DNA of 40,136 bases, from the NCBI GenBank assembly GCA_009787345.1, contig WRGF01000211.1, positions 1 to 40,136 on the forward strand. Reading direction: 5' to 3'. Each line of letters opens with the position of its first letter. Position 1 is the stretch's first letter. The position numbers were made by a program, and so were the translations under genes. The notes beneath the pieces are model-generated. The model made no database searches and was not told the origin of the DNA. It was given only the letters and a program-made list of their open reading frames with translations. This stretch comes from Turicibacter sp. Lineage in GTDB: Bacteria > Bacillota_I > Bacilli_A > MOL361 > Turicibacteraceae. Below, piece by piece: positions 10,891-40,136 of this stretch.

Positions 10891-11202
10891 TTATTTATTT
10901 TCAATGACCGTGAGGTACTGAAAACTATCTTCTTCGATTGTCTGCAAAGATATGATCATTCCTTTGGCGAGGGTTTGGGCCGCATCGCTTTGGGGAATAT
11001 TTTCAACCTGTAAATACCCATCGTCCATTTTTACCGCCAGCTCTGATTCGTCTAAGGCAATCATGGCATTTGTCAACCCAAAAGCAACAGCGCTCACTGC
11101 TGCGCACACCAAGTCTTCACCTGGTTCGCCGGCATAGGCATGCCCATCCATTTCAAAGGTTGCAACCTTATGGTTATTATAGTTAAAGTTTGCCGTAATC
11201 AT
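10891..11202 (-). CDS. prp: Ribosomal-processing cysteine protease Prp
   Basis: 103 residues. The catalytic pair is visible in [18 protein letters not shown]: His21 and Cys33. Prp cleaves the N-terminal extension of L27, whose gene follows and carries the LQFFA site. No Shine-Dalgarno stands out before the ATG, which is 11 bases after the rplU stop, so translation probably depends on coupling to rplU. Confidence 0.95.
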
Positions 11203-35567: not shown

Positions 35568-35702
35568 TTAAACGCTTAACTAAGCGATAAAAATTTAAAG
35601 CGACTTTTCAGTTAAACGCTTAACCAAGCTGTAAAAATAAAAAGTGTATCGCTTTCATGTGTTCATTATACCAGTTAAGCGTTTAATTAGTCAAGCGTTT
35701 TC
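35568..35702 (-). promoter_or_regulatory. Four LacI-type operator repeats before rbsK
   Basis: TTAAACGCTTAA at 35568-35579 and 35612-35623, its complement-like form TTAAGCGTTTAA at 35675-35686 (inside the promoter spacer), and the partial TCAAGCGTTTT at 35691. The central CG and near palindrome are typical of LacI-family repressors. Spacing between the first, second and third is 44 and 63 bp, which would allow looping. Confidence 0.8.
35665..35694 (-). promoter_or_regulatory. Sigma-A promoter of rbsKDACB
   Basis: TTGACT (35689-35694), 18 bases, TATAAT (35665-35670) on the minus strand. The spacer is occupied by one operator. Confidence 0.85.
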
Positions 35703-35806: not shown

Positions 35807-38440
35807 TTATTTACTCAACTGCTTCAATTTGCTCTCGACAGTTGCGAATTTTTCTTTGTAGTCTTCTAGCTTTGCCCGTTCCTCTTCCACTAGGTGGGCG
35901 GGGGCTTTGGCGGTGAATTTTTCGTTGGCTAGTTTGGATTCGCCGCGTTTGACTTCGGCGGACAGCTTTTTGAGCTCTGCGCTTAGGCGGGCGATTTCGG
36001 CTTCTACGTTGACGAGACCTTCGATTGGAAGGAGGATGTCTGCCCCTGTAACAACGGCGGTCATGGCTTCTTCAGACAATGTTAATCCTTTTTCGATGCG
36101 AAGTTCTGACGGGTTGCAGAATCTTTCCAAGTATGCCTGGTTAGCTGTCAAATTGTCCAGTACCTCATCGTTTTTGGCATTGATGAAGATGCGGATCTGC
36201 TTGCTGTTTGGTGCGTCCACTTCGGCACGAATGTTCCTTACTGAGCGGATGATGTCCATTAGCAGTGAGAAATCGGTGACTGCTTTTGGATTATCAAACC
36301 CAGGATTAGCCTCTGGCCAGGCGGCGACAGCCAATGCCTTGTCACTGGACGAGATCATCTGGTAGATTTCCTCTGTAACGAATGGCATGAAGGGATGCAA
36401 TAATTTCACGATGGCTTCTAAGACCGTTGCTAATACCATTCGTGTGAAGGTTTTAGCAGCTTCATCCTCAGACTGCATCGGAAGTTTTGCCATTTCAATG
36501 TACCAAGAGCAAAAATCATCCCAGATGAAATTATAGAGATGGCGGCCCACTTCGCCGAATTCAAAGCTCTCGGTGTTGCGATTGATGCCCCTGATGGTTT
36601 CGTTCAAGCGCCCTAGGATCCAAGCATCTGCGACAGACAATGAGCGACCCGTCAAATCCACGTCCTCAACGGTCATGCCATCCAGGTTCATGATAACAAA
36701 ACGGGAAGCATTCCAGATTTTATTGATGAAATTCCAGGTAGACTCCACTTTTTCTTCAATATAGCGGAGGTCTTGCCCCGGTGCGGAGTTGGTGGTCAGG
36801 AAGTAGCGCAGGGCATCGGCCCCATATTTCTCGATGACATCCATGGGGTCAACGCCATTTCCAAGGGATTTGGACATTTTTCGACCGTCTGCATCCCGTA
36901 CCAATCCATGGATAAGGACATTGTTGAATGGCACTTTTTCCGTAAATTCAAGGCTTTGGAAAATCATGCGGGACACCCAGAAGAAGATGATGTCGTAACC
37001 GGTGACAAGGGTGTCGGTGGGGAAGTATTTCTCGAAGTCTGCGTCCCCGCTGTCAGGCCATCCCAACGTTGAAAACGGCCATAAGGCTGAGGAGAACCAA
37101 GTATCGAGGACATCCTCATCCTGGGTCCAGTTCTCTAAATCGGCTGGTGCTTCCATTCCGACATGCATTTCCCCTGTGGTTTTATGATACCAAGCCGGGA
37201 TTTGATGCCCCCACCAAAGTTGGCGGGAAATGCACCAATCATGGACATTTTCCATCCAGCGAAGGAAGGTGTTTTCGAAGCGTTCTGGGATGAAGTTGAC
37301 TTTGTTTTCGGTGGCTTGGTTTTCCACGGAACGCTTGGCCAATTCCTCCATTTTAACGAACCACTGGGTGGACAAATACGGTTCTACCACCACATCGGTG
37401 CGCTCTGAATGCCCGACGGAGTGGACATGCTTATCTATTTTCACAACAAGACCCGCTGCTTGAAGGTCGGCTACTAACTGCTTACGGGCAACAAATCGGT
37501 CCAGCCCATTATATTTTCCTGCACCTTCGTTCATGGTTCCATCCAAATTCATAACGACCGGCCGGGAGAGGTTGTGCCTATTACCCACTTCAAAATCATT
37601 CGGGTCATGAGCAGGCGTGATTTTCACGACCCCCGTCCCAAAATCCATCTCCACATAGTCATCGGCAATGATAGGGATCGCCACGCCGTTTCCGGGAATG
37701 ATAACGTTTTTGCCAATTAGGTGGGTGTAGCGCTCGTCGTCAGGGTGAACGGCAATGGCAACGTCACCGAACATGGTTTCAGGGCGGGTCGTCGCCACCT
37801 CTAGGAAGTCATTGCTCCCCTCAATCTGGTATTTGAAATGGTAGAAAGCGCCTTCGATTTCCTTATGGATGACTTCGATGTCGGACAGGGCAGTGCGGGC
37901 CGCCGGGTCCCAGTTGATGATCCGTTCGCCACGGTAAATCAGCCCTTTTTCGTATAGGCCCACGAATACTTTGCGGACAGCTTCTGAAAGCCCTTCATCT
38001 AAAGTGAAACGCTCGCGGGAGTAATCCAGGGAAAGCCCCAGCTTGTCCCATTGCTGGCGGATGACACCCGCATATTCCTCTTTCCATTCCCATGATTTTT
38101 CAAGGAACTTTTCACGTCCAATGTCATAACGGGAAATCCCCTGCTCTTTTAGGCGGGCATCCACTTTCGCCTGGGTAGCAATCCCCGCATGGTCCATTCC
38201 TGGAAGCCAAAGGGCATCATAGCCTTGCATACGCTTCATGCGGATGATGATGTCTTGAAGGGAAGTATCCCAAGCATGACCGAGGTGAAGTTTGCCGGTA
38301 ACGTTTGGTGGCGGGATGACGATGGTATAGGCTGGTTTTTTTGACGTTGGATCTGCTTTGAACGCGTCTTGATCGTACCAGAACTTATTTTTTCCTGCTT
38401 CTACTTCTTGGTGGTTGTATTTTGGGGCTAGGTTACGCAT
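35807..38440 (-). CDS. valS: Valyl-tRNA synthetase
   Basis: 877 residues, family length. Class I signatures: [14 protein letters not shown] (HIGH motif as HLGH, 52-55) and [11 protein letters not shown] (about residue 520), a CP1 editing domain ([20 protein letters not shown]) and a C-terminal coiled-coil arm. Charges tRNA-Val in the cytoplasm. The ATG at 38440 has AGGAGG ten bases upstream, but that site is buried in a 16-bp inverted repeat. No T-box sequence is visible. Confidence 0.98.
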
Positions 38441-38448
38441 AGGGTTAA

Positions 38449-38551
38449 TTCCTCCTGATTTCGCTTGATTTTTGGGTTAATGTGATTGGTTCTGTTAATT
38501 TTAATTTGGCTTTCCTCGTGATTTGCTTTTTTCCGGCGAAATCAGGAGGAA
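38449..38551 (-). promoter_or_regulatory. Inverted repeat sequestering the valS ribosome-binding site
   Basis: Bases 38449-38464 and 38536-38551 are perfect 16-bp inverted repeats. On the minus strand the first arm is TTCCTCCTGATTTCGC and the second GCGAAATCAGGAGGAA, which contains the whole AGGAGG of valS. The 71-base A-rich segment between contains no obvious further hairpin or start. In the transcript the two arms would close a stem that blocks ribosome entry. Confidence 0.7.
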
Positions 38552-38580
38552 GTTGTATTAATAAAAACATTTTAATGAAA

Positions 38581-39435
38581 TTAAAATTGGATGTCCACTG
38601 AAAAGCCAATATCCGCTGCAATTTTTTCGATTGCTTTCCTAATACTCGCAACACTCATGTGGATGTATAATTCTACTCCTTCTTCAATTGAGGTAGTTAG
38701 CCGCGTCCCACTTGGAGCGATTCTCTTTTTAGTTCCAACATATTTCCCTTGGTTTCCCAAATGACGACTTAACGGCTCACCATCTACCACTATAATTTCC
38801 CGATACTCTGGTGTTTGTAAAATGTGAGTTACAAAATTTACAAATACATTACGTGCAGATATTCCAAGTATAGGCTGCTGCCCCTTAATAATAATGGCAT
38901 AAGTTGTTACCTTATTGTTGAAAATTTGAACTTCACTATACAAGTCTGGTTCGTCTACAGATACCACTTCAAACACGTCAATATTCGCAACCTTCTCTAA
39001 AATGCCAAACGAGGTTGCCCAGAAATTTTCTGCTTTCATTTTTGATGGTAAATCAATGAAACTGGTGTTTCCGCTGGTTTGATTATCCATTTCCAAACCT
39101 TCTTTTTGACATGACTCGATGAGCTTCTTCTCTAAATAGTCTGTTTGATGTTTGCCTAAATCGCCAGCACTCGAAGTAAAGATGACTACTCGATACCACC
39201 AGTCTTTATTTTTTTCATGTTGGGTCAGGCGAGTGTAAACATCCGTGCTTTGTCCCACGTAACGTTTATTCTCTCCCACCAACAAATAAATACCACCTCG
39301 CTTACATTCAGAAAATTCATTAAGGGATGAAAGGTCATCCTTATCAGCAATAACTAATATGACGCTTCCTTCATGAAAAATAGAGATATTATCCTGTTTG
39401 TGTTCTTCAGTGACAATTTGAATATGCCTCGCCAT
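38581..39435 (-). CDS. GIY-YIG domain protein with uncharacterised C-terminal region
   Basis: 284 residues. GIY-YIG nuclease domain at about 46-110: GIYLL (48-50 GIY), RYVGQSTDVYTRL with YVG at 59-61, Arg69, His73 and Glu102 as the metal-binding Glu, so the nuclease core looks complete. The 45 N-terminal residues and the part beyond about 150 are not recognised; the C-terminal segment has NVFVNFVTHILQTPEYREII, HLGNQGKYVGTKKRIAPSGT and ends with a helix SIRKAIEKIAADI. No methyltransferase accompanies it. GGAG lies seven bases before the ATG. It sits next to a broken HipA-like gene, suggesting an accessory or defence-type segment. Confidence 0.78.
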   Translation of the reverse strand: MARHIQIVTEEHKQDNISIFHEGSVILVIADKDDLSSLNEFSECKRGGIYLLVGENKRYVGQSTDVYTRLTQHEKNKDWWYRVVIFTSSAGDLGKHQTDYLEKKLIESCQKEGLEMDNQTSGNTSFIDLPSKMKAENFWATSFGILEKVANIDVFEVVSVDEPDLYSEVQIFNNKVTTYAIIIKGQQPILGISARNVFVNFVTHILQTPEYREIIVVDGEPLSRHLGNQGKYVGTKKRIAPSGTRLTTSIEEGVELYIHMSVASIRKAIEKIAADIGFSVDIQF

Positions 39436-40040
39436 TCGCCCACTCCATTCTTAATTCTTTCACCCTACCTCTTGCCAAGAAAATTCCCATCAAAGCTAAA
39501 AATAACAGGCTCTGTAACTTCCATGGCACTTTTAAGTTTTCTTCCATCATCTCGTCATCTAAGAGGGCACCTAAAGAGGAACCACAATCATAAATGGGAG
39601 CGAAACTAATTTGGACTTCTTTTTCTAGCAACCCCCAATTGCCCAAGTGTCAATCCGGATTCCCAATGAAAGCGTCAATGACAAACATATCCCAAAATCG
39701 GTCTTTAATTTCCTGCTTGTTAAGGATAAGTGCTTGGGTATCTAGGATATAATAAACATCCTCAATCCTAGTTTTCATCCGCTTATCACTATCCGGAGTG
39801 GCATTGGCTAAGCTTTTCATCTCAACGAGCTCATATCCATTTCCTGTAAAGACTTCACAACCGACGACTGTTTTTTTTATTCCCCGCTTCCGTCGTGTAA
39901 TAGCCCAAGACTGTCCTTTGGGTATCAAATCCACAAGCTTCAAATATTTGACATCCGACATGCTCAGAATACTGATTGTTCTTATAACTTATTTCCTTTA
40001 GCAATTTCTTTTCCCTAATCGGGTCTGGCATTTTCACCAT
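39407..40040 (-). pseudogene. HipA-like kinase, broken by frameshifts and a stop
   Basis: Read together, three minus-strand fragments make one HipA-like Ser/Thr kinase. From 40040: VKMPDPIREKKLLKEISYKN, SEHVGCQIFEACG, VLGYY. A frameshift near 39885-39905 (beside a run of eight As) leads to GIKKTVVGCEVF and RFWDMFVIDAFIGNPD. A TGA follows (39650-39652) where the family has Arg in the catalytic GNxDRHxxNWG; the frame goes on with HLGNWGLLEKE and APIYDCGSSLGALLDDEMME (CGA to TGA). Near 39540 another frame continues the protein (SAMEVTEPV). The N-terminus before 40040 is cut by TAG. Three or more lesions mean no active kinase. Confidence 0.82.
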
Positions 40041-40074
40041 ATGGTACTATGTCAATATTTCAGACAACTTAAAT

Positions 40075-40110
40075 TTGAGGATTTCAGCCATAAGAGGCTG
40101 ATTTTTCTTT
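40075..40110 (+). terminator. Plus-strand terminator-like hairpin
   Basis: TCAGCC-ATAAGA-GGCTGA followed by a T-rich run on the plus strand. No plus-strand gene lies before it in the window, so its use is unclear. Confidence 0.45.
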
Positions 40111-40136
40111 TTTCATGATATGTTATCTTCAGATTG

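Follow-up and report, generated by a model that had tools for sequence, protein, structure and literature searches.

The only valyl-tRNA synthetase gene found in this genome (valS; identified by Pfam, with a single match) appears to have been parted from its ancestral T-box by inserted genes and a mobile element, the T-box having been displaced rather than deleted, as far as the contig sequences tell. The explanation that we favour, namely a T-box displaced by insertions together with a valS gene read from a new promoter, with a young stem masking its Shine-Dalgarno (SD) sequence as a brake or a by-product, has as a whole about an even chance of being right. The window (the whole stretch of DNA analysed, 40,136 nt) is the complete contig C211, one of the 221 contigs of a 3.1-Mb draft genome. 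It ends 1.7 kb upstream of valS, so that the window by itself cannot show the loss of a T-box.

Results

The valS gene lies on the minus strand (35807-38440, ATG at 38440), as do all the features of its leader. Read 5' to 3', the mRNA carries the arm TTCCTCCTGATTTCGC (38536-38551; repeat search and fold), an A-rich loop of 71 nt (38465-38535; repeat search and sequence), the arm GCGAAATCAGGAGGAA (38449-38464; repeat search and sequence), TTAACCCT and the ATG. The arms are complementary at 16 of 16 positions, and all six nucleotides of the SD, AGGAGG (38451-38456), fall inside the 3' arm; the perfect 16-bp inverted repeat over the valS SD noted in the preliminary description is thus confirmed. 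Between 37800 and 39200 the repeat search returned this pair and no other inverted repeat of 12 nt or more. Nor did 924 kb of the same genome (some 30% of it, made up of 40 stretches and further loci), which formed the background for the repeat and SD comparisons, contain any other perfect repeat with arms of 16 bp or more and a spacer of 50 nt or more. Perfect repeats of at least 12 nt arose in 0.13% of shuffled leaders, and the chance of a perfect 16-nt repeat should be far below that figure. A multi-copy short element carrying the arms was ruled out, given that the leader sequence occurs once in the genome and that no further copy of the arm sequence was found elsewhere in it with up to one mismatch allowed. 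A second perfect spaced inverted repeat is present between valS and rbsK (35568-35581 and 35673-35686, 14 bp, 91 nt apart); its arms, TTAAACGCTTAACT and AGTTAAGCGTTTAA, are each nearly palindromic and resemble an operator pair of the LacI family (RbsR type).

The leader RNA is predicted to fold at -28.3 kcal/mol, whereas its shuffles average -17.0 (z = -3.67), and none of 200 was as stable. As in SD-sequestering hairpins, the valS SD is paired in the predicted mRNA fold: its probability of being unpaired is 0.0002, against a median of 0.38 over gene starts, which makes it the second most buried among the 332 starts of the same genome with a recognisable SD. This prediction depends on where transcription begins, the value being 0.0002 when the transcript has the whole 5' arm and 0.23-0.37 when it starts at 38545 or later. 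Since the whole 5' arm buries the SD, there are three possibilities: valS translation is strongly throttled, the working mRNA lacks the arm, or something opens the stem; judged from the predicted folding, throttling is the most likely. Heating hardly changes the prediction (0.0002 at 37 C, 0.0018 at 70 C). An RNA thermometer was therefore rejected, and opening of the stem by temperature, which had been put forward earlier, is disfavoured, as the predicted pairing of the SD persists even at 70 C. We also rejected an intrinsic terminator at the leader stem, which has a 71-nt loop, lacks a T-run and is absent from the results of the terminator scan.

Going upstream from valS on its own strand, the first promoter-like site is TGGACA-17-TAAAAT (38597-38569, minus strand), a consensus match at 10 of 12 positions that overlaps the end of the gene for a GIY-YIG nuclease family protein. 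A start near 38562 from this site would transcribe both arms. An open frame of 41 codons (38445-38570, minus strand), which may be due to chance, spans both arms and has its stop 4 nt upstream of the valS ATG, a spacing that would suit translational coupling. It has neither an SD of its own nor a Val codon, and attenuation by a leader peptide with Val codons was rejected on the latter ground. That the frame might be a lost C-terminal extension of the GIY-YIG protein is unsupported, as the plasmid homologues of that protein already align over residues 1-280 of 284.

In the leader (38441-38580) there is no RF00230 match, either at the gathering threshold or up to E = 10, and no other plausible bacterial Rfam family was found there; of a translational T-box, the sequestering stem is present and the T-box core was not found. 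Over its first 200 residues the ValRS shares 89-91% identity with its counterparts in five genomes of Turicibacter, a single genus of the same family (Turicibacteraceae), and in these the order is rplT-...-spoVID-ysxE-T-box-valS, with the T-box 0.27-1.96 kb upstream of valS. The names spoVID and ysxE are presumptive, taken from gene order and from the resemblance to the Bacillus subtilis arrangement. Across 80 named Bacilli loci, a T-box core stands upstream of valS in 75: it is no more than 250 nt away in 61, lies at 439 nt in one, is separated from valS by a single gene in 12 (a GNAT in three, a membrane-type protein in nine) and lies at 1,972 nt in one Turicibacter. No relative with the inverted-repeat valS leader turned up in the genome collections searched, and no second genome of the window's genus was among the genomes searched. 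In Turicibacter the interval between T-box and valS (L062, L064, L065 and L066; 1.3-2.0 kb) is non-coding, lacking long reading frames, and contains hairpin repeats of two families, whose complementary stems vary and which have no Rfam match. The first comprises about 22 units, in which an invariant TCCAGGTGG is flanked by variable stems (mean helix 7.18, versus 5.40 +/- 0.33 with the arms re-dealt; 0 of 2000), and its 16-mer core is absent elsewhere in those Turicibacter genomes; the second type ends in GATTATTCC(A) and has different complementary stems.

A T-box of the expected kind does occur in the genome, on contig C147. Directly behind ysxE, RF00230 matches over its full length with 114.1 bits (gathering score 93); the specifier, as read from the alignment, is GTG, aligned to the GTA of the five Turicibacter valS T-boxes, and a terminator with a 13-pair stem and a T-run lies at 11169-11200. 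From its sequence this Val T-box looks intact, and it now stands ahead of genes for a SEC-C protein and a GNAT. The genome has 13 T-boxes in all (12-19 in Turicibacter); the remaining ones directly precede other genes, and none is at valS. The earlier statement that there is no T-box consequently holds inside the contig and fails for the genome. The suggestion that the old leader had been removed is not borne out, the Val T-box and its terminator surviving behind ysxE, and deletion of the T-box was rejected on the same evidence. Two side observations also concern T-boxes. Contig C142 of genome G000 carries one at 753-1028 (L078) that scores 84.7 bits, under the Rfam cut-off, has a normal core and precedes a 507-aa protein reading like a peptide-transporter substrate-binding lipoprotein. 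A search at E <= 0.001 found no T-box in G001 or in G003 (the latter only 75% complete), both of genus g2 of the family, a genus that may have lost the T-box system.

The order on C147 is spoVID-ysxE-Val T-box with terminator-SEC-C-GNAT-orf93-start of a hipA-like gene, the last broken by the end of an insertion sequence (IS); the GNAT has two domains, and orf93 is a frame of 93 aa. A GNAT between T-box and valS is recurrent among Bacilli, and the second domain of the C147 GNAT matches those proteins at 26-32% identity. On the window, upstream of the valS leader and likewise on the minus strand, lie the GIY-YIG gene (38581-39435; 284 aa, GC 0.38; Pfam, tblastn), whose product shares about 35% identity with proteins from Enterococcus and Lactococcus plasmids (tblastn), and a hipA-like gene remnant (39491-40041) with a frameshift and an in-frame stop, which covers residues ~30-212 of its homologue in the relative G001 (tblastn and translation). 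The right end of a repeated IS (40042-40136, minus strand) then reaches the contig stop. These terminal 95 nt are common to the ends of C14, C117, C38 and C130; the terminal ~96 nt of C147 are common to the ends of C201 and C21, and 60 nt also to C170. The ends of C147 and the window are opposite inverted ends of one repeated IS (TGATGGTAGTATAG... and ...CATAGTACCA), and a short TAT lies beside both, as expected of a target duplication. Compared with the G001 homologue separately and unjoined, the two hipA-like parts supply residues 1-31 on the C147 side and ~30 onward on the window side. The opposite IS ends and the split hipA-like protein together argue that C147 and C211 adjoin each other with a single IS copy between them, which we regard as very probable, the contig ends rather than a spanning read being the ground for it. 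Given this adjacency, about 4.4 kb of known sequence plus the unseen interior of the IS would separate the T-box from valS. GC content is 0.38-0.40 in SEC-C, orf93/hipA and GIY-YIG, and native-like in the GNAT (0.49) and valS. Contig ends, split hipA-like gene and low GC lend good support to the earlier proposal of a GIY-YIG/HipA segment whose arrival parted valS from its former leader. The likely history is an arrangement T-box-GNAT-valS first, into which the low-GC genes and the IS came later. In G001 the hipA-like homologue (L068) lies 5.2-6.1 kb upstream of valS on the opposite strand; its position ~5 kb from valS is either chance or the sign of a recurrent insertion neighbourhood.

Discussion

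The repeat, the T-box behind ysxE, the two IS ends and the two hipA-like parts are facts at the level of sequence; the course of events that we propose to connect them is the following. Gene insertions would have split the ancestral Val T-box from valS, leaving in transcript order spoVID, ysxE, the Val T-box with its terminator, SEC-C, GNAT, orf93, a hipA-like pseudogene split by the IS, GIY-YIG, the inverted-repeat leader and valS. If the consensus site is a guide, valS is most likely driven by a new promoter located where the GIY-YIG gene ends. The resulting leader of ~120 nt would repeat the valS SD region perfectly in inverted orientation, and the 16-bp stem is predicted to cut ribosome access strongly. 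The 5' arm is most likely a young inverted copy of the SD region, made for example by replication template switching: the arms match perfectly over 16 bp although one of them is free to drift, which suggests a recent origin. Template switching is reported to be able to create and maintain RNA hairpins (PMC8794818). The stem would then be a fixed brake or a tolerated by-product, with no dedicated sensor. This is our first choice, with a regulatory switch second; a strong stem on the only valS gene would be costly unless it were opened, or bypassed by the transcription start, and this speaks against a plain permanent brake.

Each component has known parallels. Like the transcriptional T-box of Bacilli valS genes (RF00230), the one in this genome keeps the ancestral place behind ysxE, a Val specifier and a terminator; unlike there, SEC-C, GNAT, orf93, the IS-bearing hipA-like pseudogene and GIY-YIG intervene here. 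The translational T-box of actinobacterial ileS (PMC1262725) also sequesters the SD of an aminoacyl-tRNA synthetase gene in a leader hairpin, yet the valS leader lacks Stem I, specifier and T-box sequence. With SD-sequestering hairpins in general it shares a predicted stem that covers the SD completely, but this stem is uninterrupted over 16 bp, has a 71-nt A-rich loop and is joined to no recognisable sensor domain. As with template-switch hairpins (PMC8794818), the perfect stem could be made in one step from the existing SD region, whereas the valS event is read without an ancestral sequence. SD-sequestering hairpins, T-boxes, insertion sequences and mobile cargo are each familiar; what is unusual is to meet them together at an essential synthetase gene.

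Could the stem instead be the dedicated off-state of an evolved translational switch that took over control of valS after displacement of the T-box? We consider this possible but unlikely. The stem would be opened by a ribosome (through translation of the 41-codon frame or coupling to GIY-YIG), by a protein or by another RNA, and several observations would suit it: the SD sits exactly in an arm and is the second most buried of the 332 starts, the leader frame spans both arms and stops just before valS, and with valS in single copy full repression must be relieved somehow. However, comparable leader frames arise in 3.6% of shuffles with ATG starts and in 8.5% with any start, this one has neither SD nor Val codon, and transcription from the promoter-like site would begin past its ATG. 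The leader, moreover, matches no known RNA family, is predicted not to be heat-labile and was found in this genome alone among those searched. The fuller version, in which the split from the T-box was followed by a new, T-box-independent switch built from the inverted SD copy and opened by leader-frame translation or by coupling to the new gene, is decidedly improbable; if true, it would mean that RNA control was rebuilt in one mutational step.

That transcription starts within the spacer, leaving the 5' arm outside the working valS mRNA and the repeat an effectless feature of chance or history, is quite unlikely. An essential gene should not tolerate an SD buried 2000-fold, and with such a start the SD would be as open as the genome median (0.23-0.37 versus 0.38); but the consensus scan found no promoter-like site of comparable strength in the 71-nt spacer, the best site lies upstream of the arm, and the repeat is too rare for plain chance. 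An assembly or sequencing artefact at the leader is very improbable: the draft does consist of 221 contigs and the leader is seen in one genome of its genus, but the repeat sits inside a 40-kb contig and not at its end, and C147 independently carries the other hipA-like part beside ysxE and the Val T-box, which valS would be expected to adjoin. Flipping of the 71-nt segment by recombination between the 16-bp repeats is scarcely credible, for although perfect inverted repeats around a short intergenic segment are mechanically what such an inverton needs, a flip would alter neither SD nor stem, an essential single gene is unlikely to undergo phase variation, and the arm sequence recurs nowhere else in the genome, even with one mismatch allowed.

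The displaced T-box that we favour also calls for care in reading genomes, since the impression of "no T-box" arose from the position of a contig end. Should the buried SD be part of the working mRNA, this gene would offer a direct test of how a cell copes with, or turns to use, the strong sequestration of the SD of an essential aminoacyl-tRNA synthetase gene. Overall, the locus suggests that mobile DNA can uncouple an essential gene from the riboswitch that controlled it, while the riboswitch stays in place, now before new client genes.
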